This document shows positions 22,620 through 43,525 of a stretch of 64,000 nt of DNA, piece by piece. The position numbers and the translations under genes are program-made. This DNA comes from an uncultured Porticoccus sp. (GTDB taxonomy: Bacteria > Pseudomonadota > Gammaproteobacteria > Pseudomonadales > Porticoccaceae): the NCBI RefSeq assembly GCF_913061305.1, contig NZ_CAJXST010000003.1, forward strand, positions 186,001 to 250,000, read 5' to 3'. The notes beneath the pieces were generated by a model. That model saw nothing but the letters and a program-made list of their open reading frames with translations, ran no database searches and was not told the DNA's origin. Numbering within the stretch: position 1 is the first letter of the stretch; each line of letters starts with the position of its first letter.

Positions 22620-22633
22620 GTACGCTATCGAAC
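22620..22633. promoter_or_regulatory. Shared 14-bp near-palindrome, copy 1
   Basis: GTACGCTATCGAAC, matching the recurrent GTRCGHTRGCGYAC element in this region with changes in the right arm. It lies between the upstream regulator's 3' end and the inverted repeat; no start codon is close by. Confidence 0.4.
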
Positions 22634-22675
22634 ATTAGGGGAAGTCGTTGGCAATCTGCTATAGGGAAACGGCAC

Positions 22676-23347
22676 TCAACGGAGGAGGCTCGCATAATTT
22701 TCAATGCTCGCCTGGTAGCATCGACAGGATTTAGCCTCAAGACCCTTGCGATCAACGATGGTGATTTTTCCGCGGCTGTAGCGGATGATGCCTTTCCGTT
22801 GCAGCTTGACTGCGGCAATGGTGACGGCTCCCCGTTGTACGCCCAGTATCTCGGCGAGTAGCAGATGGGTCAGGGGCAGGCAATTCGTCTGGGAGCGATC
22901 ATGAGCCAGCAAAAGAGCGCGTGGCAATCGCTTGGCCACCTCATGAAAACGGGTGCAACTGATAGTTTGCAGTAGCTCCACGAGAGCAACGTACAAATAG
23001 CTTTGCAGGATATGACTCAATGCAGGGTACCTTTGCATAGCCGCCTGCAGTATCTCGGCCTTGATCCGCATTGCCATGCAAGGGGTCTGAACGATACCGC
23101 GCTGCAGGGCGCGATTGATACCCAGAATCAGACTCGCGCCGAGCATGCCTTCGCTGCCTATGCTCTCTGTTTCGAAAGGCCGGTGACCGTCGAGTGCGTT
23201 AATCAGGGAGATGTTACCGGTTACAGGGAAATAGGCATGGCTGAAGGATTCTCCTGTTTCACAAAGGATTTCACCAACGGCAATTTCAACAGGCTCACAT
23301 TGGGCCAGCACAGCGTTGCGCTCCCGGGGGGGCAAGCGGTCAATCAA
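22676..23347 (-). CDS. Crp/Fnr-family transcription regulator (second)
   Basis: 223 residues: cyclic-nucleotide-binding-like domain (IAVGEILCETGESFSHAYFP) and C-terminal winged helix (LPLTHLLLAEILGVQRGAVTIAAVKL). It shares architecture with the neighbour at 21451-22212, including the C-terminal (S)CxCY segment, but identity looks low, so it is an old paralogue. The only in-frame start is TTG at 23347, after an in-frame stop; AAGGAATAAGG lies some 35 bases upstream, so the N-terminus is uncertain. A copy of the shared 14-bp element is 150 bases upstream. Confidence 0.83.
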   Translation of the reverse strand: MIDRLPPRERNAVLAQCEPVEIAVGEILCETGESFSHAYFPVTGNISLINALDGHRPFETESIGSEGMLGASLILGINRALQRGIVQTPCMAMRIKAEILQAAMQRYPALSHILQSYLYVALVELLQTISCTRFHEVAKRLPRALLLAHDRSQTNCLPLTHLLLAEILGVQRGAVTIAAVKLQRKGIIRYSRGKITIVDRKGLEAKSCRCYQASIENYASLLR

Positions 23348-23847
23348 ACGATTTCCATCTCGACCTATATCGACAGGCTCACCTTATTCCTTTTCAGTGA
23401 CATTGGGTTCTCCCGGAGGATCAATCAACCAGCCATTACATCAGGGGTGTCATGGCAGGAACGGCACAGAATATGACTGAAAATCGACGATGTTTCTGTG
23501 CGCTATCAAACGGAGCCAGTATCAGCCCCTGTTGGGTGCTGGTTGAATTGCCATTGGCGGCATGGCCTACCCGACTGCAGCGCATGGCTGACTAGAAATG
23601 GAATATTTGCGTGTGATACCGCACAGAGATAATTTTTTTAAGAAGACATTATGTGTTTCGCGAGTTGTGAGAGTGACCAGAAATTTTTATGGAGGACTCT
23701 CCCGGACACAGAACCGGCATTTGCAACAACGGCAACCGAGAGCCAGCCAATCCTGGAACGGCAACATGAAAACCCCGGCAGCCCCAGCCGAAAGTGACCA
23801 CACCCGGCAAGAGCAATAACCTAATTAACTAAAATAAGGAGTTTGGC
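23348..23847. other. 500-bp intergenic region
   Basis: Between the second Crp/Fnr gene and the small W-rich gene. It holds one copy of the shared 14-bp element (23498-23511). Short open frames here lack ribosome binding sites and family similarity. A purine-rich ribosome binding site for the next gene is at its right end. Confidence 0.5.
23498..23511. promoter_or_regulatory. Shared 14-bp near-palindrome, copy 2
   Basis: GTGCGCTATCAAAC. Read towards the Crp/Fnr gene at 22676-23347 it continues as GCGCACAGA, the same extension seen at the BON lipoprotein promoter. The distance to the annotated TTG is about 150 bases. Confidence 0.5.
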
Positions 23848-24108
23848 TTGAAGTGGAATGCCGCGCAGGGAAAGTGGAAAAACCCCTGGGTAAATGTGAT
23901 GGAACATCAGCTTGAGGCCAGTGCTAATCAGTTTGTTTTACTGGCCTATCGCTGGAATGGAGAAACAGTTGATAGCCCTGCCCCCGGCGCTATTACGAAT
24001 AAACTGGCCGTGCAAAAAACCAGACTCGTTCACTGGCCAATCACAAAAATTGTCGATGTCGAACCCGAACTGGAGTACCCGATTGGCAATTCAACCCGCT
24101 GGCTATAA
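23848..24108 (+). CDS. Small hypothetical protein upstream of CsbD
   Basis: 86 residues starting MKWNAAQGKWKNPWVNVM, soluble, tryptophan-rich at the N-terminus, no signal peptide or membrane segment. Not recognised. The reason for calling it real is a strong AAGGAG (23836-23841) six bases before a TTG start, and co-orientation with csbD 27 bases downstream. Confidence 0.55.
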   Translation: MKWNAAQGKWKNPWVNVMEHQLEASANQFVLLAYRWNGETVDSPAPGAITNKLAVQKTRLVHWPITKIVDVEPELEYPIGNSTRWL

Positions 24109-24135
24109 CGCCAGACAATATGACAGGAGAGACGT

Positions 24136-24339
24136 ATGAACTGGGATATCATTGAAGGTGACTGGAAACAGTTCAAAGGTAAGGTAAAAGCACAATGGGG
24201 CAAGTTGACTGATGACCGTCTTGATGTGATCGCTGGCAAGCGCGACCAGCTCAAGGGCGAAATTCAAGAGGCTTACGGCCTGACGAAAGACGAAGCCGAG
24301 AAGCAGGTCAAAGCTTTTGAAGACGTCAGCAAAAAATGA
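24136..24339 (+). CDS. CsbD-family stress protein
   Basis: 67 residues with the classic CsbD pattern (MNWDIIEGDWKQFKGKVKAQ, then WGKLTDDRLDVIAGKRDQL): a small, highly charged, helical cytosolic protein, abundant under general stress in many bacteria, biochemical role unknown. CAGGAGAG precedes the ATG. A clear terminator follows. Confidence 0.93.
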   Translation: MNWDIIEGDWKQFKGKVKAQWGKLTDDRLDVIAGKRDQLKGEIQEAYGLTKDEAEKQVKAFEDVSKK

Positions 24340-24371
24340 CGTTCGCTAAGTTTTGATGCTTTATACAAAAC

Positions 24372-24412
24372 CGCCAGGCAGAGATGTGCAAAGTTGCCTG
24401 GCGATTTTTATT
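24372..24412 (+). terminator. Rho-independent terminator after csbD
   Basis: Perfect 9-base stem CGCCAGGCA (24372-24380) and TGCCTGGCG (24395-24403) followed by ATTTTTATTATT. Confidence 0.85.
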
Positions 24413-24522
24413 ATTATAAATGGCCTTATTAATTAATAGTCACACTATTAATCGCCAAATTGCGAGTTGTAACACGCCGGGATGATATCCCGGCTGTCAT
24501 CCCTCACTGTATCAATCGTTGC

Positions 24523-24681
24523 TCAGATCCTTCCCGCCAGAAACAACACCAGCAGAACCAGTACGATAATGCCGACTATACCGCTGGGCATATAGCCCCA
24601 CTCCCGGCTGTGCGGCCATGCGGGAATGACGCCCACCAGAACCAGTATCAGAACAATGACAAGAACCGTTGTCAGGCTCAT
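24523..24681 (-). CDS. DUF3309-like small membrane protein
   Basis: 52 residues with two hydrophobic helices (TTVLVIVLILVLVGVIPAW and IVGIIVLVLLVLFLAG) joined by PHSREWGYMPSG, which is the DUF3309 pattern. Function unknown; such proteins accompany CsbD, GlsB and BON genes in stress regions. The ATG at 24681 has GGAG eight bases upstream. The shared 14-bp element sits 60 bases before the start. Confidence 0.85.
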   Translation of the reverse strand: MSLTTVLVIVLILVLVGVIPAWPHSREWGYMPSGIVGIIVLVLLVLFLAGRI

Positions 24682-24741
24682 TTGAAGTACTCCATAAAAT
24701 GGTTGAAGCTGAGACATTAGCTTGATTAAGCGTTCCCATCG

Positions 24742-24755
24742 GTACGCTATCGCAC
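24742..24755. promoter_or_regulatory. Shared 14-bp near-palindrome, copy 3
   Basis: Plus strand GTACGCTATCGCAC; towards the DUF3309 gene it reads GTGCGATAGCGTAC, 60 bases before the start codon. It also lies about 150 bases upstream of the divergent BCCT transporter gene. Confidence 0.6.
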
Positions 24756-24906
24756 AGTGGGGATTCCGGTCCCGCGCATGTGCCCTTTTCGTTCAGGTAT
24801 TAGATGGTTTTCCGGGGCACCACCGTATCTTCAGTGCAGGCAATTAGCCGCTATGTTAAGTTCGTCACTGCGCTTTTTTCACTGTACGCTGTTTGGATTA
24901 TTCGTC

Positions 24907-26553
24907 ATGAACAACCGTCCCGGCTGGGTCTTTTACACATCGCTGATTCTGCTGGCGGCATTTGTCGGCCTGGGCGCTACCAACCCCGAGCAGCTGTCGG
25001 CATGGGCTGGGGTCGGTCTGCAGTTTACGACCGAGCATTTTGGCTGGCTGTATCTGTTTGCCACCAGTGGTTTTCTGCTGTTCTGCATCGGTATTGCCTC
25101 GAGTGATTACGGCCATATCCGTCTGGGTGTGGAGGGCGAGGCCGCGGAATTTCCCTATCTCACCTGGTTGGGGATGATTTTTTCGGCTGGCATGGGTGTG
25201 GGACTGGTGTTCTGGGCGGTAGCCGAACCCATGAGTCACTTTGTCAGCCCGCCTTTCGGCGAGGCCGAGCCCCGTAGTCCCCAGGCGGCGGGGGCTGCGA
25301 TGCGCTATTCGCTGTTTCACTGGGGTTTTCATCAATGGGCCAATTTTGCGTTGGTGGGATTGTCCATTGCCTATGTGCGTTTCCGTATGCAGCGCCCGGG
25401 ACTGATCAGCGAGACTTTTCGGCCGCTGCTGGGTGACAGGGTGGACGGTGCTGGCGGCCATCTGATCAATATCCTGGCGGTGATATCGACGGTATTTGGT
25501 GTGGCTACTACGCTGGGGCTGGGCGTCATCCAGATTAACAGTGGGCTGGTGTCAGTGGGCGATGTGGTTTTTGGCACCACCCAGCAGCTGATGATTCTGG
25601 GCGGCATCTCGATGATTTTTTTGGTGTGTGCACTGACGCCGCTGGAAAGTGGTGTGCGTTACATCAGTGATCTGAACATGTTGCTGGCGGGCGCGCTGTT
25701 GGTGTTTGTATTTTTTGCCGGCCCCACCGATTTCATTACTGCCGCCATGACCAACGCCATCGGAGATTATTTTGGCAATATCATGGGCATGAGCCTGGTG
25801 ATGACACCCTACACCGGCGATGACTGGGTACAGCGCTGGACAATTTTTTACTGGGCCTGGGGACTATCCTGGGCGCCGTTTGTGGGCAGTTTTATCGCGC
25901 GGATTTCCCGCGGTCGCACCATCCGGGAATTTGTCATGGGTGTGATCGGCATGCCGGTGCTGCTGAGTGTGCTGTGGTTTTCGACCTTTGGCGGCTCGGC
26001 ACTGTATTTTGAACTGTTCGAAGGTGCGGCCCTGGGCGATGCGGTGGTGCAGGAAATGAGCTCTGCCCTGTTCGCTACCCTGGCGCTTCTACCGGGCGCG
26101 GACATTATCAGTATTTTGATGCTGGTGCTGATTATCCTGTTTGTAATTACCTCGGCCAACTCAGCTACTTTTGTGCTGGGTATGTTTACCAGCAAGGGTG
26201 TGCTCACACCCAGTCGCTGGTCGCGGGTAACCTGGGGTGTGATTCAGGTACTGGTGGCCGGCGTATTGCTGCTCAGTGGCGGACTGGCGGCACTGCAGAC
26301 CATCTCCATTGTGGCGGCCTTTCCGTTTATGATTCTGATGATTTTTATGGCCACCTCACTGCTCCGATCCCTGCGCACCGAGCGTCGCCAGCAGGAGCTG
26401 CACGAGGCCATGACCCGCGAGCGGTTGCTGCGACTACTGGACAGCAGCGATCACCTGGGGGAGCCGGAGCGGCCCACAGAGCTTGATGAATTGCGCGAAG
26501 AACTGATAGAACAGGTCAGCCAAGGGGAACCGGAACCGCCTCGACCGGAGTAA
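24907..26553 (+). CDS. BCCT-family transporter
   Basis: About 548 residues, twelve predicted membrane helices. The betaine/carnitine/choline transporter signature FYWAWGLSWAPFVGSFIARI followed by SRGRTIREF is intact, as are GMGVGLVFWAVAEP and HWGFHQWA. It probably imports a quaternary amine or compatible solute for osmoprotection. The C-terminus is a charged cytosolic tail (LRTERRQQELHEAMTRERLL). The N-terminus is uncertain: the ATG at 24907 directly precedes the first helix, one at 24853 would add 18 residues, and neither has a strong ribosome binding site. Confidence 0.9.
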   Translation: MNNRPGWVFYTSLILLAAFVGLGATNPEQLSAWAGVGLQFTTEHFGWLYLFATSGFLLFCIGIASSDYGHIRLGVEGEAAEFPYLTWLGMIFSAGMGVGLVFWAVAEPMSHFVSPPFGEAEPRSPQAAGAAMRYSLFHWGFHQWANFALVGLSIAYVRFRMQRPGLISETFRPLLGDRVDGAGGHLINILAVISTVFGVATTLGLGVIQINSGLVSVGDVVFGTTQQLMILGGISMIFLVCALTPLESGVRYISDLNMLLAGALLVFVFFAGPTDFITAAMTNAIGDYFGNIMGMSLVMTPYTGDDWVQRWTIFYWAWGLSWAPFVGSFIARISRGRTIREFVMGVIGMPVLLSVLWFSTFGGSALYFELFEGAALGDAVVQEMSSALFATLALLPGADIISILMLVLIILFVITSANSATFVLGMFTSKGVLTPSRWSRVTWGVIQVLVAGVLLLSGGLAALQTISIVAAFPFMILMIFMATSLLRSLRTERRQQELHEAMTRERLLRLLDSSDHLGEPERPTELDELREELIEQVSQGEPEPPRPE

Positions 26554-26915
26554 AAGCTGGCTAACAGCAGCGTTCCGACATTTAAACGCATCAGCTCCAC
26601 GATGGACTTCTGATCCTGTTGTGGTTGGTCGGGTTGACTGGTCGTCTGATCGCCACCCTGCTCAATCAGAGCTCGGCGGTAATCGTATTCGTTACGGTGG
26701 CACTGACCCGGCTAGGCTCGTGGTGGGACAGGTTAATGCGTGGTGTATCACTGTTGTGGCAGCTATCGCTGCTGTGGATTCCCCGGTTGGCTGGCAAGAG
26801 CCCGGTTAACGCCGAGCGAACAGAATTACTTGCACCAGTCAGGGCGCAGGTTTAAAAAGCGGAGTAACGTCGGGATAGTTGCGAGCTCTTTTCATCCATA
26901 GGCCAAGGTTAAGCC

Positions 26916-27329
26916 ATGACAATTAACACATCACAGACCAAGGACGCCACCGGCCGGGGCTGGGCAATAGTGATCTACGGGCTGCTGCTGGGCAGCATCA
27001 TGACCGTGGTGACGGCTCCGTTAGCTGCAATTCTGGCCCACTGGCGATGTCCCGGCAGCGCCCCCTGGGTGGCCAGCCATCTCCGTTTTCAGGCGCGTAC
27101 GTTCTGGATCGGCTTGATGGCCTGTGCCCTCGCTTTCGCCGCCTGGCAGGGGCTTGGCTACCTGGGTGCCCCGCCGCTCAGTGCCTGGATATTCGGGTAT
27201 CTGTTCTTCACTGCCCTGTTGATCTGGCTGGTGGGTCGCTGCGCCATCGGCATTCACCGGCTCACCGCCAATCTCCCAATAGATAACCCAAAAAGCCTGC
27301 TCTTGGGCCTGCACTCATCCAAGCAGTGA
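26916..27329 (+). CDS. Predicted membrane protein (COG3671/DUF4870-like)
   Basis: 137 residues with three hydrophobic helices and the segment WVASHLRFQARTFWIG, typical of the COG3671 membrane proteins. Function unknown. It is convergent with norD, whose stop codon is immediately adjacent. Confidence 0.7.
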   Translation: MTINTSQTKDATGRGWAIVIYGLLLGSIMTVVTAPLAAILAHWRCPGSAPWVASHLRFQARTFWIGLMACALAFAAWQGLGYLGAPPLSAWIFGYLFFTALLIWLVGRCAIGIHRLTANLPIDNPKSLLLGLHSSKQ

Positions 27330-32380: not shown

Positions 32381-32692
32381 CTACTTGATGGTCATGTCGT
32401 TTCTTACTGAAGTGACACCATTGATGCCACGGGCGATGTCCACGGCTTTATCCATGGCTTCTTTTGAGGTGACAAATCCGCTGAGTTGCACCACACCTTT
32501 AAAGGTTTCGACGTTGACTTCGCTGGACTTGACGACGGGGTCTTCGACCAGAGCCGTTTTCACCTTGGTGGTAATCCAGGTGTCGTCGATGTATTCGCCA
32601 GTGCTTTCGTTAGTCGAGCTTCCCGCGCAACCAACCGCAGTAATCAAAAGTACCGCAAGCAGTGATGTGAAAATTGCATTGATGGGGCTCAT
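32381..32692 (-). CDS. BON-domain lipoprotein
   Basis: 103 residues. A signal peptide ends in a lipobox-like LITAVGC (Cys22), so it is probably a lipoprotein. One BON domain follows (DDTWITTKVKTALVEDP, then VNVETFKGVVQLSGFV). It is a likely envelope-stress protein related to the three-BON protein at 20.6 kb, whose third unit also begins with DSWITTKVKSSL. The ATG at 32692 has CTGGAGAAG upstream. The shared 14-bp element is 64 bases upstream, and a leader very similar to this one is found at about 43.5 kb. Confidence 0.88.
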   Translation of the reverse strand: MSPINAIFTSLLAVLLITAVGCAGSSTNESTGEYIDDTWITTKVKTALVEDPVVKSSEVNVETFKGVVQLSGFVTSKEAMDKAVDIARGINGVTSVRNDMTIK

Positions 32693-32756
32693 CGTAATTC
32701 TTCTCCAGTTATCAGTATTGTTAGAACAATCATGGCAGTAAGGTGCGCAACGGTCT

Positions 32757-32770
32757 GTGCGCCGACGTAC
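32757..32770. promoter_or_regulatory. Shared 14-bp near-palindrome, copy 4
   Basis: Towards the BON gene it reads GTACGTCGGCGCACAGACC (32770-32752). It lies 64 bases before that start codon and about 210 bases before the divergent DUF883 gene. Confidence 0.6.
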
Positions 32771-33710: not shown

Positions 33711-33986
33711 TCAGTGTGCGGAACCTGCGGTGCTACGTTGGATCAGTTTCAGGACAGCGAGCAGGATCACTGCACCGATCAGCGAGACAATGAAGCTCAT
33801 GACCGTGATGCCCTCATTGATGGAGCCGGCACCGAGCAGCGGCCCTATCAGCCATCCGCCGATCAGTGCGCCAACAATGCCGACCACGACGTTGAGGATG
33901 ATGCCCTGCCGGGCATCGGTGCCCATGATCATGCTGGCGATCCAGCCAACCAGGCCACCCATGACGAGCCATATAATAATGCCCAT
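33711..33986 (-). CDS. GlsB/YeaQ/YmgE stress-response membrane protein
   Basis: 91 residues with three glycine-rich helices (MGIIIWLVMGGLVGWIASMI, GIILNVVVGIVGALIGGWL, FIVSLIGAVILLAVL), the transglycosylase-associated GlsB/YeaQ/YmgE family. Exact role unknown; general-stress induced in many bacteria. GGAGG lies upstream of the ATG at 33986. The most symmetrical copy of the shared motif lies 75 bases upstream. Confidence 0.92.
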   Translation of the reverse strand: MGIIIWLVMGGLVGWIASMIMGTDARQGIILNVVVGIVGALIGGWLIGPLLGAGSINEGITVMSFIVSLIGAVILLAVLKLIQRSTAGSAH

Positions 33987-34061
33987 GATTTCTACCTCCA
34001 GATAATTTTGACGCACCAGGCGTCAGTGGAATAAGCATATCTGTACCGTCTCGCAATCACC

Positions 34062-34075
34062 GTGCGCTAGCGCAC
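34062..34075. promoter_or_regulatory. Shared 14-bp palindrome, copy 5 (perfect)
   Basis: GTGCGCTAGCGCAC is a perfect 14-base palindrome, 75 bases upstream of the GlsB gene start. It is the best template for the motif found through this region. Confidence 0.65.
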
Positions 34076-34194: not shown

Positions 34195-34731
34195 TCAGTC
34201 TATTTTTACATATTTTGGCGCAGTGCTCAGACTTTCACGGGTCGCATCAATCCGCAATTCCATATCATCAGAACCGCCTGATTTCTTCACATCGTCCCAA
34301 CCTATGGCTACGTATTTCTCACCCATGCCCAGGAATCCGTCGACACCGACGACAATAGCCACGATTCGTCCGTCCTTATCAATGATAAGATCGTCCACCG
34401 AACCCACGTCCTCATCACCTTTGGTTTTAACATCAGCACCAATCAGGTTACTCGCGTGCATACCATTAGTCGGAGCAGAGCCCATATAGCCGCCCCGTTT
34501 CTGCATCTCATACTGTTTTTTCATGCCGGACTGATCGTCGCGCATGTTTTGCTTTTCTTCACCAGTCTGCGAGCCAAGCTGTTCAGGGCGCTTGCCTTGG
34601 GCACTTCCGGGAGTTTCTGTAACCAGTCGATTGGAGTCCTGGTTCTGATCTTGTGCCAGGACAGAACCTGTACCGAATGTGATCGCTGGCGTGACCAATG
34701 CATAAAATGCAAATGAATATAGCCTTTTCAT
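34195..34731 (-). CDS. Exported PRC-barrel domain protein
   Basis: 178 residues. A signal peptide ends near GSVLAQD, then a Q/N-rich, probably disordered linker (residues 28-80), then a PRC barrel (about 92-170: ASNLIGADVKTKGDEDVGSV, DLIIDKDGRIVAIVVGVDGF). PRC barrels are small beta domains often found in stress-induced proteins. It is distinct from the cytosolic PRC protein at 45.3 kb. A degenerate copy of the shared motif lies at 34898-34917. Confidence 0.87.
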   Translation of the reverse strand: MKRLYSFAFYALVTPAITFGTGSVLAQDQNQDSNRLVTETPGSAQGKRPEQLGSQTGEEKQNMRDDQSGMKKQYEMQKRGGYMGSAPTNGMHASNLIGADVKTKGDEDVGSVDDLIIDKDGRIVAIVVGVDGFLGMGEKYVAIGWDDVKKSGGSDDMELRIDATRESLSTAPKYVKID

Positions 34732-35099
34732 AGTAAGTATCCTTCGATATCAAATTTGTTAATCGGACTAAATGCCCTGCTTAACCACCTCATTACAGCT
34801 TGTCTTCTCCGGCTCTATTACCCGAAAGGGGACTATGCCGTGACGAGATATGGAACTCAGGATGAGGTTCCAATGTACGCCGATGGGATAGGTTCGTCGG
34901 TTCGCTGACGTACGTAGGCCTATGTGACCAAAACCTTACCCCACCGTTTGCCAACGCACAGAGATCTCCTGCCTGCAGCGTAATAATCAATGTCAGCGTG
35001 CTTCAGACATGAGGCTGCATTGCTGCGAACAAATAACCGGTGCCGACGATCATCAAGACAGTTCGTCCCTCATTACCAAGATTCCCCGGAGAAGTACCA
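34732..35099. other. Intergenic region between PRC-barrel and catalase genes
   Basis: 368 bases between divergent starts. It contains a degenerate version of the shared motif (TTCGCTGACGTACG, 34901-34914) and the catalase ribosome binding site (GGAG at about 35088). No small gene with a good start was found. Confidence 0.45.
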
Positions 35100-37514
35100 A
35101 TGGCCAGGAAAAAGACACCTGCTCGACCATCATCAGAGAAAATCAAAGGCGACAACCCCACCAATGCTGCACAGGTCCATGACGGCTTGCTCAGAACAAA
35201 CGACATTATTGCAGCACACGCCCGGGCAAGCGACGATCTGGTCGCCGCGATGCCACACAACAATATCAAGGAGCTTGAGCACGGTCATGGCAATGCCGTC
35301 GCGCCACCCACCGGAGAAACTGTAAAGCCGGATTCCAGTGCGTCGACCGCCAGTACAACCACAGAGAAAACCGGGTCCGCGAAGACCGGCGGCGCCGCGC
35401 CGCTCGGCACCAACGCCACCACCAAATCACTTGACCGGGTCCGGGTCGACGCAAGCGATCGACCCTTGACCACCAATCAGGGGGTATCCATTGGCGATAA
35501 CCAGAACACCCTGAAAGCGGGTTTGCGTGGGCCCTCGTTACTCGAAGATTTTATTCTGCGGGAAAAGATCACACACTTTGATCACGAGCGTATCCCGGAG
35601 CGAGTCGTCCATGCCCGAGGCTCAGCAGCGCACGGCTATTTCGAAGCCTACGACGCGTTCGGCAAGGTCACTCGTGCAGCGCCATTCGCCGAGAAAGGCA
35701 AAGTTACGCCTGTGTTTGCACGCTTTTCCACGGTAGCTGGCGAACGCGGTTCAAAAGATACCGCGCGAGACGCCCGCGGTTTTGCGGTGAAGTTCTATAC
35801 CGAGGAAGGCAACTGGGACCTGGTCGGAAATAACATACCGGTATTCTTCATTCAGGACGCGATGAAGTTTCCCGATCTGGTCCATGCCCTAAAACCGGAA
35901 CCGCATCACGGCATGCCGCAAGCAGGCTCCGCGCATGACACCTTCTGGGACTTCGTTTCACTGATGCCGGAGTCCACTCACATGTTGATGTGGGCGATGT
36001 CGGATCGTGGCATACCACGCAGCTATAGAATGATGCAGGGCTTCGGCGTCCATACCTTCCGCCTGGTCAACGATGAAGGTCATTCCGTCTTCTGCAAGTT
36101 CCACTGGAAACCGCTGCAGGGAACCCATTCACTCGTCTGGGACGAAGCCGTAAAAATCGCTGGCGCAGACGCCGATTTTCATCGGCGTGATTTGTGGGAA
36201 GCCATCGAGTCGGGTGAATTCCCCGAATGGGAGCTGGGACTGCAGATATTCACCGAGGAACAGGCCGAGGGCTTCAGCTTTGATGTGCTCGACTCGACCA
36301 AGCTGATACCGGAGGAATTGGTGCCACTTACGCCCGTCGGGCGCATGGTTCTCAACCGCAACCCGGATAACTTCTTCGCGGAAACCGAGCAAGTCGCGTT
36401 CTGTACGGCGCACATCATACCGGGCATCGACTTCTCCAATGATCCCCTGCTCGCCGGTCGTATCCATTCCTACTCCGATACACAGATCACGCGACTCGGC
36501 GGCCCCAACTTTCATGAGATCCCGATCAATTCGTCGCTTGCCCAGGTACAAAACAACCAGCGCGACGGCATGCACCGTCAGGCGCTCAATCGCGGACGCG
36601 TTGCATATGAGCCAAATTCACTGGCGGGCGGCTGCCCCTTTCAGGTGGGAGCAGCAGGATTCGTGTCTTTCCCCAAAGCCAGTGCCAGTGCCAGTGCCAG
36701 TGCCAGTGCTGAGGACAAGGTTCGCGGAAAACCGGAGAAGTTTGCCGAGCACTATGCCCAGGCCACCTTGTTTTTCAATAGCCAGACGGCTGTCGAGAAA
36801 GCGCATATTGCAGGCGCATTTCGTTTCGAGCTGAGCAAGGTCGCTGTCTCCGCCATACGTGAACGGATGTTGTCCTCGTTGGTGAATGTTTCAAAGGAAT
36901 TGGCCGCAGAAGTCGCAGCCGGTTTGGGTATGGAAATGCCCGAGGCTATGCCAAAGGCCATAGATAACCCACAGCCACCTGAAGTCACCAAATCTCCGGC
37001 CCTGTCGCTGACTGCGCTGCCCGGAGAGTGTGGTATCCGCACCCGTCAGATTGCCATTTTGGTTGAGAATGGCGTCCACTACACCCCGCTCGCCGAACTT
37101 TATACTGCCTTGACGGACGCGGGTGCGGTGGTTCATTTCGTCGGGCCACGGGTTGGCATATTCGTTGGCGACTCCGGCGAGGTAATAGAAGCAGACAAGT
37201 CGATGGAGAATTCTCCGGCAGTCCTGTTCGATGCACTGGTGCTGCCCGATGGCCGCGAGGCAATCCAGGCGCTCGCAGGCAACGGGCATACGATAGAGTT
37301 CGTCAAGGATCAGTTTAGGCACTGCAAAACGATTCTCGCCTTGGGTACCGGACGCGAGCTTCTGGTAATGGCCCGCATTGGATCAGACATTGATGAAGAC
37401 CCGGGTATCCTGCTGGCGGAAGGTACCAATGCGACCGGGATCGCATCCACATTCATCGACGCGGTCGCCGCCCATCGTCACCCAGCCCGCGACAACGATC
37501 CACCTTTGATATGA
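35100..37514 (+). CDS. katE: Large-subunit catalase, HPII/KatE type
   Basis: 804-residue clade II catalase that breaks down hydrogen peroxide. A long disordered N-terminus (1-140) precedes the barrel with catalytic His171 in [18 protein letters not shown] and the heme-Tyr region in the middle; a C-terminal flavodoxin/DJ-1-like domain (about 650-800, [16 protein letters not shown]) is typical of HPII. A serine-alanine repeat (S528-A537) sits in the segment before [16 protein letters not shown]. The ATG at 35100 has GGAG at suitable spacing; the frame is open from 35040. Confidence 0.94.
36681..36710. repeat. In-frame 6-bp tandem repeat in the catalase gene
   Basis: AGTGCC four times and then AGTGCT, encoding (Ser-Ala)5. 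It could vary in copy number by slippage without disrupting the frame. Confidence 0.95.
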
Positions 37515-37570
37515 GATCATGGGATTTGTACCAACCGTGAATAGAGCGCTAGTAAAAAAGAGGAGAGACC

Positions 37571-38278
37571 ATGATCAACGTTCAGATTTATCGATACAAC
37601 CCTGAGCATGACGCTTCACCTTATATGCAGTCTCTGTCACTTCCTGAAGAATTCCGCAACCGGATGGTTCTGGATGCATTGGAATACCTGCGGGAAAAAG
37701 ATCAAACACTGGCGTATCGGCGTTCTTGCCGGGAGGGGGTTTGCGGTTCAGATGGTATGAATATCAATGGCAAGAACTGGTTGGCATGCATAAAGCCCGT
37801 TGAGGAAGCAATGGGTACATCTGACTGCCTGATTATCAGACCACTGCCCGGCATGCCGGTCATTCGTGATCTCGTAGTAGATCAAACTCTCTTCTTTGAG
37901 CAATATAAACGCATCAAGCCGTGGCTTATCACCCATGATGCCCCGCCTTCGATTGAACGACGACAATCTCCAGAGAAGCGTGCCCAGCTTGATGGATTGT
38001 ACGAATGTATACTCTGTGGATGCTGTACGTCCCAGTGTCCTTCCTGGTGGTGGAACCCTGAAAAATACCTGGGACCTGCTGCATTATTACAGTCGTTGAG
38101 ATTTCTTCTCGATAGTCGTGATCAGGCTCGTATAGAGCGATTGGGAAATCTTCAGGATCCTTTTAGCCTGTTTCGCTGCCGAAGTATTGGCAACTGTTCC
38201 TGGGTGTGCCCCAAAGGACTTAATCCCATGGGAGCAATCGGCAGAATCAGACGTGAATTAATGCGCGAATCCACTTGA
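37571..38278 (+). CDS. Orphan succinate dehydrogenase/fumarate reductase iron-sulfur subunit
   Basis: 235 residues closely resembling SdhB. The [2Fe-2S] ligands are C53, C58, D61, C73 (CREGVCGSDG, as in E. coli SdhB), and the other clusters' cysteines are in CILCGCCTSQCP (146-156) and FRCRSIGNCSWVCPKG (203-213). No sdhA, sdhC or sdhD gene is nearby. At the position of the quinone-site histidine of E. coli SdhB (FRCHSIMNC) it has Arg204. It is therefore a divergent paralogue, perhaps with a different electron partner. AGAGGAGAG precedes the ATG. It follows the catalase gene by 56 bases and may be co-transcribed. Confidence 0.85.
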   Translation: MINVQIYRYNPEHDASPYMQSLSLPEEFRNRMVLDALEYLREKDQTLAYRRSCREGVCGSDGMNINGKNWLACIKPVEEAMGTSDCLIIRPLPGMPVIRDLVVDQTLFFEQYKRIKPWLITHDAPPSIERRQSPEKRAQLDGLYECILCGCCTSQCPSWWWNPEKYLGPAALLQSLRFLLDSRDQARIERLGNLQDPFSLFRCRSIGNCSWVCPKGLNPMGAIGRIRRELMREST

Positions 38279-38411
38279 TAAACGAGCACCTTGGGCAGAC
38301 GCGTACCCACCCGTAGGTGCCTCGGAAGAATTCGAGAAGCTGTGACTGAATCCGGATACTCTTCTCCCGCAACTTTTAGCGAACCTGTGCACAACCACAA
38401 AGGATGCAATC

Positions 38412-39710
38412 ATGGCCCAATTACCACTTCTGACTCTGGACAGGCTGCGCTTTGTTTTCAGTCGAATTAAAGAGCGCTTGTGGGTCAAACCACTGATACT
38501 TTGCGTCTTTTCTATAGGCGGTACATTCATGGCCATGCTGGCTGATGATATTGGTCTTGCCAGTGTGTTGCCCAAAGTCAATCTGGAATCTGTCGAATCC
38601 CTGCTGTCCATTATGGCTTCCAGCATGTTGGTCATTGCGACGTTTGCGGTAGGCTCAATGGTAGCCGCTTATGCCTCCGCCAGTGCCGGCGCCACCCCTC
38701 GTTCCATACCTCTGGTCATTGCTGATGACGTCACCCAGAACGCATTGTCTGCGTTTATCGGCGCCTTCATCTTCAGCATTGTGTCCCTGATAGCGGTTCA
38801 GAATGGCATGTTTGGCTCTGCGGGCCTATTTGCGATCTTTGCGCTAACCCTGCTGGTGTTCGCTATTGTCATCATCACTTTTGTTCGCTGGGTGGACAGG
38901 GTTGCCCGGCTGGGCCGGGTCGTCAACACTATTGAACAGGTGGAAAAGGCAGCCGGTAATGCACTGGATCGTCGTCGCCATGGGCCAACACTGGGCGCTT
39001 TGATACTCTCCCCGCATCAGGCCATGGACAGGAGTGTCGCCGTATACTCAGCGAGCGTTGGATATGTCCAGCATATTGATCTGGAGACGTTACAGTCTCA
39101 AGCTGAATCGCTTAAATGCCGGGTGATGGTGACAGCACTGCCCGGCGCCTTTGTGAGCACCAGCCATCCACTGCTTTATGTTAAAAGGGACATTGAGGGG
39201 TGCATTGAGGGCTGCGGGGCGTTCAAGTCAGACACCCTCTCCAGGGCATTCACGATCAGCCGAAATCGTACTTTTGAAGATGATCCCAGATTCGGGCTGC
39301 TTGCCTTGTCCGAGATCGCCGACAAAGCGCTGTCACCCGGCATCAATGACCCGGGAACCGCCATCAATGTTATTGGCACAATGGTACGACTGTTTACTCT
39401 TTGGCAATCCCCGCTTGAAAAGGACAGACTACTGGCGATTACCTATGACAGGGTATCCGTTCCCGAGCTGGTGATCGATGACCTGTTCGATGATGCCTTT
39501 ACCGCAATTGCCCGTGACGGCGCAGCTATGGTTGAAGTTGCCATCCGGCTGCAGAAAGCATTTTGTGCGCTGGCCGAAACAGGTAACCACGCGATGGTCG
39601 CCGCCGCCAGAAAACATTCACGAATGGCTCTGGTACGCTCAGAACACGCCATGTCAGTTCAGCAAGATATCGATGCTGTGCGAAGCGCTGCCGCGTTTTC
39701 AGCCGCGTAA
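38412..39710 (+). CDS. DUF2254 membrane protein
   Basis: 432 residues with four hydrophobic segments in the first 165 residues (LILCVFSIGGTFMAMLADDI, SMLVIATFAVGSMVAAYAS, SAFIGAFIFSIVSLIAV, LFAIFALTLLVFAIVIITF) and a soluble C-terminal region containing ALSPGINDPGTAINVIGTMV, the conserved DUF2254 block. Function unknown. AAAGGA lies before the ATG. Confidence 0.88.
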   Translation: MAQLPLLTLDRLRFVFSRIKERLWVKPLILCVFSIGGTFMAMLADDIGLASVLPKVNLESVESLLSIMASSMLVIATFAVGSMVAAYASASAGATPRSIPLVIADDVTQNALSAFIGAFIFSIVSLIAVQNGMFGSAGLFAIFALTLLVFAIVIITFVRWVDRVARLGRVVNTIEQVEKAAGNALDRRRHGPTLGALILSPHQAMDRSVAVYSASVGYVQHIDLETLQSQAESLKCRVMVTALPGAFVSTSHPLLYVKRDIEGCIEGCGAFKSDTLSRAFTISRNRTFEDDPRFGLLALSEIADKALSPGINDPGTAINVIGTMVRLFTLWQSPLEKDRLLAITYDRVSVPELVIDDLFDDAFTAIARDGAAMVEVAIRLQKAFCALAETGNHAMVAAARKHSRMALVRSEHAMSVQQDIDAVRSAAAFSAA

Positions 39711-39799
39711 GTTCAGGACGCACTGACGAGCAACGGACCGAAGTGTCGGAGTCAGCTCCGCCTGACAAAAACCTGTCCCGCACAGTGGTACGGCTGACC

Positions 39800-39813
39800 G
39801 TGCGCTAGTGTAC
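39800..39813. promoter_or_regulatory. Shared 14-bp near-palindrome, copy 6
   Basis: GTGCGCTAGTGTAC, with the symmetry extending outwards as CCGTGCGCTAGTGTACGG. It is 160 bases upstream of the phasin-like gene. Confidence 0.55.
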
Positions 39814-39973
39814 GGACCCTGTGCCCCGTTTTCTGTAGTATCAAAAATGCAAGAAACCCCGGTTGCCACGAATAAATTTCGAGTGTGGTAGGACCGTGCC
39901 CGGCAAACCGTGAACCCGATTCCTGCAACAGCCCGGGGGTATGACCCATCGCCCTCGAAACCAGAGCACGACT

Positions 39974-40375
39974 ATGAAAAAGCGAAAGAAGAACAAACTG
40001 AATGATGATGTGGCACAACTGGCGGTGGCCGCGCCGATGGTGATTGCTCATCGTATGAGGCGTATGGTACAAGCCGGTGCCTCGCCATCAACAGATGACC
40101 GCAGGGAGATGAATCGCATGGGCGAAGAGAAGTTCGATGCATTTACCGAGTCATGGAACGGCACGGCGACGGGGATGACTCTAGCCTACATGAACTTTGG
40201 TCTCGACCTGATGCGCCTGGCTTGGTCTCCCTGGTACCGGACCGGAGGATTAATGAAAGCTGCGGCTGTGCGGTTCAGTGAGGCCACCAGGACCAGTATG
40301 GAGGGATCACTCATCCCGGTACGCCGACGTGCCGTAGCAAACGCAAAGCGGCTTGGGCGCAAATGCCGAGGTTGA
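39974..40375 (+). CDS. Phasin-like small protein
   Basis: 133 residues. The block LAVAAPMVIAHRMRRMVQAG followed by SPSTDDRREMNRMGEEKFDAFTESW resembles small phasin-family (polyhydroxyalkanoate granule-associated) proteins of Pseudomonas and Burkholderia. The N- and C-termini are strongly basic. No PHA synthase gene is in the window, so granule binding is inferred from sequence only. The ATG at 39974 starts the basic MKKRKKNK stretch; the frame is open from 39941. Confidence 0.65.
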   Translation: MKKRKKNKLNDDVAQLAVAAPMVIAHRMRRMVQAGASPSTDDRREMNRMGEEKFDAFTESWNGTATGMTLAYMNFGLDLMRLAWSPWYRTGGLMKAAAVRFSEATRTSMEGSLIPVRRRAVANAKRLGRKCRG

Positions 40376-40440
40376 ACCTGTCCCTCGCTGGGGAAGAGTT
40401 GGTCGTGGAGACTTATTCAGCAATTATCTGGATTCGAAGG

Positions 40441-41805
40441 TTAACTGGCAGAAGATCTGTCCGTATTATCAGCGGTGTCGAAAAAATACAGCCGGTTAGA
40501 ACCGGATTCTTTGGCTTTATACATGGCCTGATCCGCAGCCTCCAGTAGAGCGACTGGCGAGGCCGCATCCCGTGGGTAGAAAGAGATGCCAATGCTGACG
40601 GAAATCTGGACAGTCTGTTCCGCGATCTGAAAAGGTGTCGCCAGGGCATCAATGATCTTCTGGGCCACCAGCTCGGCGTCCTTGCGCCGTTTAGTGCCAA
40701 TGAGAATTACGGTAAATTCATCACCGCCCATACGGGCAACCGTATCCACCTCCCGAACACAATCAGTCAGCCGCCCTGCCACGTCAGCCAGTAAACGATC
40801 CCCCACCTCATGGCCAAACGAATCGTTGACGTCCTTGAAGCCATCAAGGTCTGTGAACAGTACGGCAAGAGGCGAACTACTGCGCTTGGCATGCTTGACT
40901 TCCTGTTCCAGCCGATCCAGGAACAGACGTCGATTCGGCAGTCCGGTCAGCAGGTCATGATGGGCGTTATGCCAGATTTTTTCCTCGGCGAGCGCCTGTT
41001 CGGTAATGTCCCGGGAAATGCAGACAGTTGCTTCGGTGTTTTGATCCTCGTCCAGCACGGGTGCCAGCAGATATTCAAACCGTTCGCCCTTGCCAGAAGC
41101 AAACTTGTGGACGAACTTGCCCCGGTAGGTGGACTGGTCGGTAATTACCTTTTCCAGATTGCGCTGGAAGTCCGCTGCGAACGGGAACCCGAGATCAAAG
41201 GTGGTTTTTCCGATGATCTCCTCGGGCTCCAGTGCGAAAAGGTCGGCGGTAGCCTTGTTTGCGTATATAAACCGGCCTTTGAGATCCAGTACATAAATCG
41301 GGTCGGGCGATGCGAGCAGAACGGCACCGAACAGCCGGGTTTCCATCTCTTTCAAGATCGCATACTGCTCCAGTGATTCAGCGACGGCCTGGTCAATCGC
41401 TTCATGAAACCGGGTGAGATCTTCAAGTTGATCGCAGGAAATCGTTGGGCAGGCTTTAGTCCAGTGTGACACCACGCTGGCACGCAGGGCCCGAAACTCG
41501 GAAATGGTTTCCATGACACTGAAACCGCTGGTCTGTCGATCACCACCGTGCACTTCTGCCCAGGACTCCTCCCCCTCTATCTCCACCGGCCCATGGCCCT
41601 TCGATTTGGCGGCCTGTTCTGACTCACTCTGACGTGAATCTAGATCATCGGCAATCTCCAGCAGCATGTCTCTGGCATGATCGCGCAGCCCGGTCTTGCC
41701 CATATGTCTGGCATGGAAGATGGTTTGAGCAAAGGCTTGCCAATCCTGAAGAATTGGCTCTATTTCTGCCCGAATATAATCTGCTAATCGCATGTTCATC
41801 TTCAT
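40441..41805 (-). CDS. Diguanylate cyclase with RsbRD-like and PAS domains
   Basis: 454 residues: N-terminal helical domain resembling RsbRD_N (LADYIRAEIEPILQDWQAFA, about 5-150), a PAS domain (160-275, SPDPIYVLDLKGRFIYANKA) and a GGDEF domain (280-445) with active-site GGDEF at 360-364 and the inhibitory site R351-EV-D354. It should synthesise c-di-GMP. It is encoded 28 bases after the endonuclease/exonuclease/phosphatase gene, probably in the same transcript. Confidence 0.92.
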   Translation of the reverse strand: MKMNMRLADYIRAEIEPILQDWQAFAQTIFHARHMGKTGLRDHARDMLLEIADDLDSRQSESEQAAKSKGHGPVEIEGEESWAEVHGGDRQTSGFSVMETISEFRALRASVVSHWTKACPTISCDQLEDLTRFHEAIDQAVAESLEQYAILKEMETRLFGAVLLASPDPIYVLDLKGRFIYANKATADLFALEPEEIIGKTTFDLGFPFAADFQRNLEKVITDQSTYRGKFVHKFASGKGERFEYLLAPVLDEDQNTEATVCISRDITEQALAEEKIWHNAHHDLLTGLPNRRLFLDRLEQEVKHAKRSSSPLAVLFTDLDGFKDVNDSFGHEVGDRLLADVAGRLTDCVREVDTVARMGGDEFTVILIGTKRRKDAELVAQKIIDALATPFQIAEQTVQISVSIGISFYPRDAASPVALLEAADQAMYKAKESGSNRLYFFDTADNTDRSSAS

Positions 41806-41833
41806 TTTTTACTCACAATAAGAATAGAAAGGA

Positions 41834-42907
41834 TCAGGGCAGACGTTCATCCGTTTGTTGTTTACCCTCTTCGATCTTCTCGTCTACCTGTTTGCCTTCT
41901 GTCCGGTTTGTATCCGGTTCTTCCTGGTCGACAGCTGCCCCGGGCTCCAGACTCAGTTCGATAAAAATCGGAAAATGGTCCGATCCCCAGGCGGGCCCTC
42001 TCTCCATGTGGACGAGTTTGAAATGATCGGAATGGAAAACGTGATCGAGCGGCCAGCGCAGGAGCGGATTCCTGGCGTTATAGCTGTTGTACATGCCCCG
42101 TCCCACACGCGGGTCGAGCAGGCCACTGGCTTTCTGAAACAGTCTCGTGGAGTAAGACCAGGCTACATCGTTAAAGTCCCCTGCAATGATTGTTGGCCTG
42201 TCGCGCTGCGCCGTTTCCCGGCCCAGGATCAGTAGTTCCGCATCCCGTTTAGTGGTCTCGGTCGCATATTTTGGATTGGGCGGATCGGGGTGAACGAAAT
42301 GCATAGAGACCCGATCATCTGACGGCAGCACCACCTGCGTGTGCATCGACGGGATACTGTCCTTGAGAATAAACCGGATTTCGGGATCGATCATTTCCAG
42401 TCGGCTGTACAAAAGCATGCCATAGGTGTTGTCGAGCGGGTTCTTGAGCGTGTACGGATACGTCTCTTCCAGTGACCTGAGTGCTTCCTCCCACCACTCG
42501 TCTGTCTCCACGGTCAGGATCACGTCCGGATCATACTCGCGCACGATATCCAGAAAAGCGCCCGACTCCCGGTTGCCCATCAGCACGTTGGCAACCAGCA
42601 GTCTGAGGTGAGCCTCGTCCGAGCGCGACTCAGACGCCAAGACCTGCCTCGGCATCAGCACCGTGTACGGAAGCATCTTCACTATCTGAAAACCAACTGC
42701 CAGCACCAACAGGCCGAGAACGACGGATTCGTAGACCTGTTTCTCATCCAAGAAATAAAGATAGAGGGCAAGCAGTGCGATGCCTACGATGGTGATCTGT
42801 CCTCTTGGAAAATCAAAAATACGAATCCACCATTGGTTGTGACGCAATAACGGGAGAGCCGTAGCCGTCACCAGTAGCAGGGCCAGCAAGATCAGAACAA
42901 TTTTCAT
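41834..42907 (-). CDS. Membrane-anchored endonuclease/exonuclease/phosphatase family protein
   Basis: 357 residues. Three N-terminal hydrophobic segments (IVLILLALLLVTATALPLL, GQITIVGIALLALYLYFL, SVVLGLLVLAVGFQIV) precede an EEP domain: RLLVANVLMGN, DVILTVETDEWW, IIAGDFNDVAWSY and WGSDHFPIF contain the expected Asn, Glu, Asp and His metal/catalytic residues. The acidic tail is probably disordered. Substrate unknown (phosphodiester bonds in nucleic acid or lipid head groups). Confidence 0.87.
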   Translation of the reverse strand: MKIVLILLALLLVTATALPLLRHNQWWIRIFDFPRGQITIVGIALLALYLYFLDEKQVYESVVLGLLVLAVGFQIVKMLPYTVLMPRQVLASESRSDEAHLRLLVANVLMGNRESGAFLDIVREYDPDVILTVETDEWWEEALRSLEETYPYTLKNPLDNTYGMLLYSRLEMIDPEIRFILKDSIPSMHTQVVLPSDDRVSMHFVHPDPPNPKYATETTKRDAELLILGRETAQRDRPTIIAGDFNDVAWSYSTRLFQKASGLLDPRVGRGMYNSYNARNPLLRWPLDHVFHSDHFKLVHMERGPAWGSDHFPIFIELSLEPGAAVDQEEPDTNRTEGKQVDEKIEEGKQQTDERLP

Positions 42908-42950
42908 GGGATTTGAAAGGGATCCTCGGAGGAGCGTGACTTAGCCCTCA

Positions 42951-42986
42951 ATGGGATCAATACGACCTGCGATGGGATCAATACGA
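42951..42986. repeat. 15-bp direct repeat upstream of the EEP gene
   Basis: ATGGGATCAATACGA occurs at 42951-42965 and 42972-42986, a 21-base period, 44 bases upstream of the EEP start at 42907. It is possibly a paired binding site or a slippage product. Confidence 0.8.
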
Positions 42987-43182
42987 GAAAGGCTATCACT
43001 CGGGATTCCGTAATGATTGCAAAAGACATACCTCCCGAGCCGTGCTGCGATAGCGTTTTTACCGGGTAGAACTATTGCGTTTATGACCATCTCCGGCGAG
43101 AGGAACTGGACCCGCTCGACTACCTGCACAGATGTGCAGGGCAGTCGTCGTTGCGTACCCAATTCTGGGAAATGGTAGCGGA

Positions 43183-43344
43183 TCAGTTGTCAGTGGCATC
43201 TTCGAAGGCATCACCGGTGTCTTCAATTTTATCGTCAGCCTCTTCCCCAGCCTCTTCGAGAGGACCCTGGTTGTCGCAGGCAGACAGCGAGATCATCAGA
43301 GCACTCGCGAGCAAGGTGGCTGTCATGGTTTTGCCAAATTTCAT
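43183..43344 (-). CDS. Small acidic lipoprotein
   Basis: 53 residues: MKFGKTMTATLLASALMISL followed by lipobox LSAC (Cys23) and an acidic tail (EEAGEEADDKIEDTGDAFED). Not assigned to a family. The ATG at 43344 has AGGAG ten bases upstream. It lies downstream of what looks like a duplicated BON-lipoprotein promoter and leader (43412-43530), which probably drives it. A near-palindrome CCTGCACAGATGTGCAGG (43124-43141) lies after the stop codon. Confidence 0.7.
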   Translation of the reverse strand: MKFGKTMTATLLASALMISLSACDNQGPLEEAGEEADDKIEDTGDAFEDATDN

Positions 43345-43411
43345 GGATATTTAACTCCTGGTTGGTTACTGAAATACACCGGACCCATACCTGAATCTGC
43401 AAAGGTGCAGG

Positions 43412-43444
43412 TTATGTATGAACATCCGTATTGATGGGGTTCAT
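43412..43444 (-). pseudogene. Truncated start of a BON-lipoprotein paralogue (leader remnant)
   Basis: A 10-codon frame, MNPINTDVHT then stop. Its first codons and the preceding leader up to about 43530 match the start and leader of the BON lipoprotein gene at 32692 (MSPINAIFTS): shared stretches include ATCATGGCAGTA and the 14-bp element at nearly the same distance (67 against 64 bases). It is best read as a decayed gene whose promoter survives. Confidence 0.6.
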
Positions 43445-43511
43445 AGTGATTTCTTCTCTGATTCCCATCAGTGTAGGGGTTAAATCATGGCAGTATGACG
43501 CAGAATGATCT

Positions 43512-43525
43512 GTGCGGCAGCGTAC
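43512..43525. promoter_or_regulatory. Shared 14-bp near-palindrome, copy 7
   Basis: Leftwards it reads GTACGCTGCCGCACAGATC (43525-43507), 67 bases before the remnant ATG at 43444 and 168 bases before the small lipoprotein gene. Confidence 0.6.

Follow-up and report, generated by a model that had tools for sequence, protein, structure and literature searches.

Related Crp/Fnr systems

CRP from E. coli, CRP from M. tuberculosis and GlxR from C. glutamicum share the operator TGTGA-N6-TCACA, and FNR, DNR and FixK the operator TTGAT-N4-ATCAA. NtcA, whose signal is 2-oxoglutarate, has the operator GTA-N8-TAC. Activators of Class II classically bind with their site centred at −41.5, at promoters whose −35 is degenerate. 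In Burkholderia cenocepacia the lxa (low-oxygen-activated) locus is a stress-gene cluster with Crp/Fnr genes. We know of no shared control for DUF3309, CsbD, BON, PRC and GlsB, which are genes of unknown role that co-occur in many proteobacteria.

The window (the whole stretch of DNA analysed, 64 kb) carries an island with such genes and with two Crp/Fnr regulators:

21451-22239, minus strand: Crp1, Crp/Fnr regulator and proposed activator, recognition helix LGVRREGVTEAAG, C-terminal CECY
22676-23347, minus strand: Crp2, second Crp/Fnr regulator, helix LGVQRGAVTIAAV, Pfam HTH_Crp_2 2e-12

By its cNMP-binding-like beta-roll, long dimer helix and Crp-type HTH, Crp1 belongs to the Crp/Fnr superfamily, the Pfam cNMP domain being barely above its cut-off (27.6 vs 27.5). 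It differs from CRP and GlxR in its predicted half-site, which has C-G for A-N, in its targets and in a Cys/His set that is invariant in the Crp1 family (C163, H166, H167, C174, C240 and C242); it also has Glu in the place of CRP Arg185. From FNR it differs in the half-site, in lacking an N-terminal cysteine cluster and in having the six invariant residues placed elsewhere. Membership in the FNR subfamily was rejected (21.4 bits with the NCBIfam Fnr model vs a cut-off of 228; no Cys before residue 163), as was identity with NtcA (21.1 bits with the NCBIfam equivalog vs 244.95). NtcA is a sequence match to Crp1 in a PDB search, and the outer bases GTA/TAC of its operator stand at the same positions as in the Crp1 element, which has an additional CG/CG core; the targets of NtcA also differ from the Crp1 set.

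The palindrome and its promoter context

The initial annotation had listed seven intergenic copies of a 14-bp near-palindrome, and all are present at their coordinates: those at 24742 and 34062 match the consensus exactly, that at 23498 departs from it at two bases, and the other four (22620, 32757, 39800, 43512) depart at one. The copy at 34062 is indeed a perfect palindrome. Allowing at most 2 mismatches, the window holds 21 strand-counted matches (13 places; 5.9 expected), and 0 of 100 shuffled windows had at least 21. The full element is T-N2-GTRCG-N4-CGYAC-N-GA, and the half-sites in the window are mixed (GTACG/GTGCG). The sites are given here with the distance to the −10 box, the box itself and the gene behind it:

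22592-22633, minus strand: GTTCGATAGCGTAC-AGA, 22 nt, TAATCT; ahead of crp1, score 19.1 with the 14-column matrix
23470-23511, minus strand: GTTTGATAGCGCAC-AGA, 22 nt, CATATT; ahead of crp2
23611-23652, plus strand: GTGTGATACCGCAC-AGA, 22 nt, CATTAT; ahead of 23848-24108 and csbD1 (24136-24339)
24714-24755, minus strand: GTGCGATAGCGTAC-CGA, 22 nt, TAATGT; ahead of DUF3309 (24523-24681)
32729-32770, minus strand: GTACGTCGGCGCAC-AGA, 22 nt, CATGAT; ahead of the BON lipoprotein (32381-32692)
34034-34075, minus strand: GTGCGCTAGCGCAC, 22 nt, TATGCT; ahead of a GlsB/YeaQ-like gene (33711-33986, Pfam Transgly_assoc)
34872-34913, minus strand: GTACGTCAGCGAAC-CGA, 22 nt, TACATT; ahead of a PRC-domain gene (34195-34731)
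34946-34987, plus strand: weaker site GTTTGCCAACGCAC-AGA, TAATAA at 21 or AATAAT at 22 nt; ahead of catalase HPII (ORF 35040-37514)
39800-39841, plus strand: GTGCGCTAGTGTAC-GGA, 22 nt, TAGTAT; ahead of a phasin PhaP6-type gene (39941-40375)
43484-43525, minus strand: GTACGCTGCCGCAC-AGA, 22 nt, CATGAT; ahead of the BON-leader remnant and, behind it, a 53-aa ORF
20449-20491, plus strand: GTGTGTCAGCGCAC-CGA, 23 nt, TACTGT; ahead of the three-BON gene (ORF 20373-21446)
20345-20386, minus strand: weaker site GTGGGGTTGCGCAC-AGA, 22 nt, TAGTAT; ahead of a PAS-GGDEF gene (19057-20337)
45981-46022, minus strand: degenerate site GTGTTGTTCCGCAC-AGA, 22 nt, TACCTT, low matrix score; ahead of csbD2 (45722-45901)

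For csbD1, one CsbD match lies below the cut-off and the assignment comes also from a separate search; the catalase HPII match is likewise below its cut-off (1002 vs 1102 bits). The 53-aa ORF (43183-43344) is intact and reads as a small lipoprotein with no Pfam match. The promoters at 32757 and 43512 resemble copies of each other.

The 60-75 bp noted between the palindrome and DUF3309, the BON lipoprotein, GlsB/YeaQ and the BON-leader remnant were read off correctly. Of the three degenerate copies proposed earlier, the one at the PRC gene stands, at 34900-34913, the one at csbD2 is weak (46009-46022), and the three-BON gene is better served by 20449-20462; the sites at 23611 (csbD1), 20373 (PAS-GGDEF gene) and 34946 (catalase HPII) had not been listed. 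The region from 1 to 19 kb, where no copy had been noticed, has one 2-mismatch match, at 16461, which is without a −10 box.

The direction given to the element by the extension CGCACAGAY is real: among 115 singly oriented sites elsewhere, GA at positions 15-16 is on the promoter side in 94 and on the other side in 20. This AGAY is the core of a predicted weak −35. A −10 box of the form YAnnnT lies exactly 22 nt gene-wards of all seven sites first listed, and within the range of 5 to 59 nt no second spacing is shared by two sites (chance about 2e-7, corrected for 55 spacings). This distance places the palindrome near −41.5, the position of a Class II activator. Behind 226 matrix matches the box is found at 22 nt in 67 cases, at 23 nt in 29 and at 21 nt in 23, other spacings from 10 to 39 having only 2-12, and in 100 sites the flanks outside the 14-column matrix are T(−3) in 77%, G15 in 86% and A16 in 98%. 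The sequences thus have the features of a Class II promoter, with the dyad about 41.5 bp ahead of the predicted start, a −10 box, and a weak −35 overlapped by the site. Dependence on sigma-S was considered and not adopted, C at −10 position 5 in 54 of 100 sites being suggestive only.

Restriction to the island and conservation beside Crp1

The window sites had been one source of the directional 17-mer. It matches the 2.68-Mb genome exactly at 10 places; nine lie in the window island, among them the 34946 site, and the tenth is inside an ORF. With at most 1 mismatch, the bare 14-mer is found at 14 places of the genome; 6 of them belong to the window, and the other 8 are all in ORFs of at least 100 aa, none with YAnnnT at 22 nt. 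It is therefore only the bare 14-mer that is as common inside genes; the putative functional unit, site plus −10 box at 22 nt, is peculiar to the island and Crp1 loci.

Nine window sites served to train a matrix, which was run on 80 loci with orthologues of Crp1. At a score of at least 15 it gave 226 strand-counted matches, compared with 6 for the reversed matrix and a mean of 7.6 for 5 permuted ones. For site plus −10 box the numbers were 180 compared with 2 (reversed) and 0-2 (5 permuted), so that the composite sites recur across genera beside Crp1. With a threshold of at least 14 (+3 being added for a −10 box), a site lies ahead of 41 of the 80 crp1 genes, 35 of them with the box, vs 0.7% with 20 permuted matrices; the remaining 39 have none at that score. 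At a score of at least 11 outside long ORFs, 16 of the 80 loci are without a composite site. None was seen in G117 (19 kb) or the more distant G131 (17 kb), both with Crp1-type genes, nor, for more distant homologues, in the stretches retrieved from Comamonadaceae, Microvirga, Methylobacterium, Variovorax, Methylomagnum and Cupriavidus P-10. In G065, a fragmented assembly, two sites and DUF3309 are present and Crp1 was not found. In twelve loci with other Crp/Fnr genes there were two matches, a weak one (12.0) outside long ORFs and a second that falls within an ORF. The bare 14-mer, matched in 61 of 144 relatives, is not tied to Crp1 and is thus unusable as a marker.

That bare 14-mers also turn up within genes and in genomes that lack Crp1, and that two window promoters are copy-like, would fit a chance GC-rich palindrome or an island-borne mobile repeat with no regulator. 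We consider this extremely improbable in view of the fixed 22-nt distance, the conservation across genera with degenerate spacers, the 180 matches vs 0-2 in controls and the covariation of residue and base described next.

Crp1 as the probable binder

Five loci have an S-type regulator, with Ser at the residue that aligns with CRP E181; of their 32 half-sites, 28 have A and 4 have C at position 3. Where this residue is Glu, position 3 is G in 155, T in 87, A in 73 and C in 5 of 320 (101 loci; E-type loci L147-L149, L192, L193, L199 and L200, with the helix unfound or unclassed by the pattern, were omitted). G or T thus occupies 242 of 320 half-sites with Glu, and A or C 32 of 32 with Ser vs 78 of 320 with Glu: the sites track the specificity residue of the regulator, as those of a Crp1 regulon should. 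It should be noted that every named S-type regulator, among them that of a Paraburkholderia strain (L286), comes from Burkholderiaceae, so that the type probably reflects one evolutionary event.

We therefore estimate at roughly 0.85 the probability that the palindrome is the Crp1 operator and that Crp1 is a Class II activator of its own gene and of a mobile stress/envelope set. A Crp1 dimer would bind the palindrome, centred near −41.5 and overlapping a weak −35 (nGAC) that a TAnnnT-like −10 box follows after 17±1 bp, and would turn transcription on; it is only the position that suggests activation rather than repression. Besides crp1 itself it would activate compact, presumably horizontally moving small envelope/stress genes (DUF3309, BON, CsbD, PRC, GlsB, small lipoproteins, catalase and phasin), elsewhere together with diguanylate cyclases and cyclic-glucan-synthase-like GH94 enzymes. 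A regulon under a Crp/Fnr binder, the first interpretation of these sites, is supported as far as sequences can tell; the evidence points to Crp1, not equally to both regulators.

The site ahead of crp2 itself and the mixed half-sites in the window would agree with Crp2 or a Crp1-Crp2 heterodimer as main binder. This is improbable, because 88 sites were found in the 56 of 80 loci in which the search pattern detected no second helix, because the base covariation tracks the Crp1-type helix, and because position-3 A is not clearly commoner with both helices (15 and 24 of 77 vs 12 and 19 of 88). A division of labour in the heterodimer, Crp1 on GTGCG and Crp2 on GTACG, is unsupported by these counts.

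Somewhat less improbable, yet still unlikely, is that Crp1 represses at the same sites or that Crp1 and Crp2 compete, as activator and repressor, on one operator. Each of the two regulator genes in the window is preceded by a site, and 24 of the 80 loci have a second helix of another type (for example RRSG, QRGA, QRSA). The −41.5 centre with its degenerate −35 is, however, an activating position, and the base make-up of the 77 sites in these 24 loci shows no clear difference from that of the 88 in the other 56.

Predicted target genes and distribution

Activation by Crp1 would reach both crp genes, DUF3309, BON, CsbD, PRC and GlsB in the window, and these genes may respond to stress. The 115 ORFs behind sites elsewhere include HTH_Crp_2 (31), BON (12), DUF3309 (8), GGDEF (7), PRC (7) and CsbD (3), and diguanylate cyclases and giant GH94 enzymes are predicted targets that the initial annotation did not have. 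CsbD is present in 8 of 10 Crp1 genomes vs 11 of 134 others, and CsbD loci have sites in 5 of 17 cases in Crp1 genomes vs 0 of 13 without Crp1, at only p = 0.05.

An uncharacterised Crp/Fnr branch very probably reads the palindrome and turns on a gene set in many beta- and gammaproteobacteria. The soil bacterium P. capeferrum WCS358 (L067) is one carrier of crp1. No description of the Crp1 operator or regulon was found in the literature with searches that were mostly weakly worded and probably missed spellings of "Crp/Fnr", nor in the passages available from PMC11719878, PMC10778927 and PMC4603805 (a reference-list passage). The predicted regulon is directly testable, since its operator is defined, its regulator is named and the Glu/Ser switch provides an internal control; the matrix allows members to be sought in any genome, and orphan genes become linked with diguanylate cyclases and cyclic-glucan-type enzymes.

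More tentatively, and we would rather doubt it in full, Crp1 might be the founder of a widespread subfamily with the code GTRCG-N4-CGYAC that governs a mobile envelope-stress/biofilm package (BON, CsbD, PRC, DUF3309, diguanylate cyclases, GH94 glucan synthase) and that is carried by plasmids too, pKLC102 being one. The inducing signal could then be sensed via C163, H166, H167, C174, C240 and C242, residues of the hinge and of the C-terminal helix; this would make Crp1 a sensor of metal, redox state or thiols that differs from the FNR cluster.

The likeness to lxa is one of general make-up, a stress cluster with Crp/Fnr genes. In one strain of B. cenocepacia a Crp1-type gene, accompanied by sites like those of the window, is carried on a 3.2-Mb replicon, and the genes beside the B. 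multivorans Crp1-type copy are Spy, YSC84, DUF1003, BON and DUF3309.

The promoter element

As judged from sequence comparisons, the palindrome belongs to a real regulon of a Crp/Fnr protein, of a known kind, with predicted Class II-type promoters and its own DNA code. The target set is unusual and apparently mobile and, as far as our searches of limited reach extend, the regulon has no earlier label in the literature. It is found in an island of small stress genes (DUF3309, BON, CsbD, PRC, GlsB), which includes:

21451–22239 (-), Crp1, a Crp/Fnr regulator and the proposed activator
22676–23347 (-), Crp2, a second Crp/Fnr regulator

The seven near-palindromes GTRCGHTRGCGYAC reported ahead of small stress genes in the initial annotation (22620, 23498, 24742, 32757, 34062, 39800 and 43512) are all present, two fitting the printed consensus exactly and the remaining five with one or two mismatches; the annotation put them forward as a candidate regulon that the two Crp/Fnr proteins might bind. 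At up to two mismatches the window contains 21 strand-counted matches; shuffled sequences average 5.9 (sd 2.5), and not one in 100 attained 21.

When nine island sites are aligned towards the gene, a -10-like hexamer follows at a constant 22 nt (TAATCT, CATATT, CATTAT, TAATGT, CATGAT, TATGCT, TACATT, TAGTAT and CATGAT). Site 34946 has TAATAA at 21 nt and site 20449 TACTGT at 23 nt; no such hexamer is present behind the two within-gene matches (40319, 16461). YAnnnT is found at 22 nt in all seven annotated sites and at every other distance from 5 to 59 nt at most once. A 14-bp dyad at this distance is centred near -41.5. The direction mark AGAY, recognized already in the initial annotation, coincides with the position expected of a -35 hexamer (CAGACn, separated by 17 bp from the -10), which has GAC in common with TTGACA, and distances of 21, 22 or 23 nt equal spacers of 16, 17 or 18 bp. 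In Class II activator promoters the activator site overlaps a poor -35. Since the putative -35 hexamer coincides with AGAY at a spacer of 16–18 bp, the palindrome overlaps a poor -35, in which the island sites are Class II-like. Another weak site-like element, GTGGTTTAACGTAC-AGA with CATACT 22 nt on, lies at 48076–48117 (-) and has no clear target gene.

Distribution in the genome

At up to one mismatch the bare 14-mer occurs at 14 places in the 2.68-Mb genome (reversed control: 3 matches), six of them in the window. The other eight are all within ORFs of at least 100 aa and, whichever way they are read, lack a YAnnnT box at 22 nt. A directional 17-mer, GTNYGNYRNCGNACNGA, composed from the island sites and the consensus of other genera, has ten exact matches, nine in the window and the tenth within an ORF and without a -10 box; at up to one mismatch it yields mostly noise (135 matches versus 91 in the reversed control). 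A motif as common within genes as outside them, which would argue against a regulon, is seen with the bare 14-mer only. Two BON loci beyond the island, scanned over 3.2 kb each, have no site. As far as the 14-mer, 17-mer and BON-locus scans reach, the predicted regulon of this Porticoccus genome is the island.

Relatives of Crp1 and the site in other genera

Crp1 is present in 10 of 144 relative genomes (E 1e-20) and in 0 of 16 other genomes of the genus, a rarity suggesting that the island was probably acquired. An alignment search of named genomes gave at least 588 Crp1 relatives, of which the best 80 were retained with flanks (1.44 Mb in total; Pseudomonas, Rheinheimera, Marinobacter, Nitrosomonas, Aeromonas, Colwellia and others). 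In these 80 loci, a matrix from nine window sites found 226 strand-counted matches (score ≥15) versus 6 for the reversed matrix and a mean of 7.6 for five permuted ones, and the distance to the -10 box peaks at 22 nt. Composite matches, i.e., palindrome plus -10 box (score ≥13, -10 at 21–23 nt), numbered 180 versus 2 reversed and 0–2 with the five permuted matrices; they occur in 75 of the 80 loci, and 43 of the 180 lie within long ORFs by a crude gene mask. The consensus of 100 sites is T-N2-GTGCG-nTAg-CGYAC-N-GA, in which the flanking T, G and A are outside the 14-column matrix used for finding sites.

Several observations count against a Crp1 regulon. Of the 80 loci, 16 have no composite site (score ≥11) outside long ORFs. 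One relative with Crp1 (G117) has no composite site in 19 kb, nor has a distant relative (G131) in 17 kb. Among the 144 relatives, presence of the bare 14-mer shows no association with that of Crp1; a site is found in 5 of 17 CsbD loci of Crp1 genomes versus 0 of 13 in genomes without Crp1. In G065 a 7-kb contig (C133, locus L247) carries sites and DUF3309, and a search of this genome for Crp1 found none; either the gene is missing from the assembly or the regulator is encoded elsewhere.

Predicted target genes

A simple selection that weighed distance, length, start codon and letters resembling a ribosome site gave 126 distinct downstream ORFs. The domain scan covered 115 of them, the excluded ones being 11 of the 12 over 2,000 aa. 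Domains found were HTH_Crp_2 (31), BON (12), DUF3309 (8), GGDEF (7), PRC (7), CsbD (3), DUF5670 (3), Band_7 (2) and Rick_17kDa (2). The twelve giant ORFs (2,805–2,968 aa) are likewise preceded by sites, and the single one included in the scan encodes a cyclic-glucan-synthase-like protein of family GH94. In the Pseudomonas aeruginosa element pKLC102 (L145, 1–14400), Crp1 adjoins an 8.5-kb gene annotated GH94, and matches to a site with a -10 box point to this gene and to a desaturase.

The GGDEF genes behind sites elsewhere point to the window's PAS-GGDEF gene (19057–20337) as a member missed in the initial annotation. This diguanylate cyclase gene and the three-BON gene are divergent, with one site apiece (19057–20386). 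The promoter at 43512 (43183–43525) is similar to the one ahead of the BON lipoprotein (32757), with the CATGAT box and leader start in common; its leader ends after about ten codons and is followed by an intact 53-aa ORF that reads as a lipoprotein.

Which regulator would read the site

In geometry, the GTRCG half-sites are spaced by N4 as in FNR sites, while their G-T-G takes the positions of G-T-G in the TGTGA of CRP. A site stands ahead of the crp1 gene itself in 41 of 80 loci (35 with a -10 box; permuted matrices 0.7%). In 56 of the 80 loci, which together hold 88 sites, Crp1 is not accompanied by a second, Crp2-type helix.

Five loci have a regulator with LGVRRSGVTEAAL in place of LGVRREGVTEAAG (S-type, Ser for Glu). 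The changed residue aligns to the Glu of the GlxR Arg-Glu pair, which corresponds to CRP E181, the residue reading this base pair. Half-site position 3 in these loci is A 28, C 4, G 0 and T 0 (n=32), and with Glu regulators G 155, T 87, A 73 and C 5 (n=320, 101 loci). For the first two S-type loci, Fisher's test returned 1.5e-9, although neither the sites of one locus nor those of one clade are independent of each other. The Burkholderia multivorans island has a copy in B. cenocepacia with similar sites, which was left out of these counts. In six of the loci compared, the same AAL helix carries Glu; sites occur in four of these (10 half-sites: G 6, A 4) and are lacking in two. NtcA, whose sites have GTA, is not known to have this Glu.

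Features of Crp1

An invariant Cys/His set, partly common to Crp2, is located at Crp1 residues 163–174 and 240–242; none of it lies at the N-terminus, the place of the FNR cluster. The 5'-terminal part of the crp1 ORF (22146–22190) contains a short tandem repeat with a unit like GAGTGGGTT; it encodes repeated Gln-Pro-Thr near the N-terminus, and its copy number may be variable.
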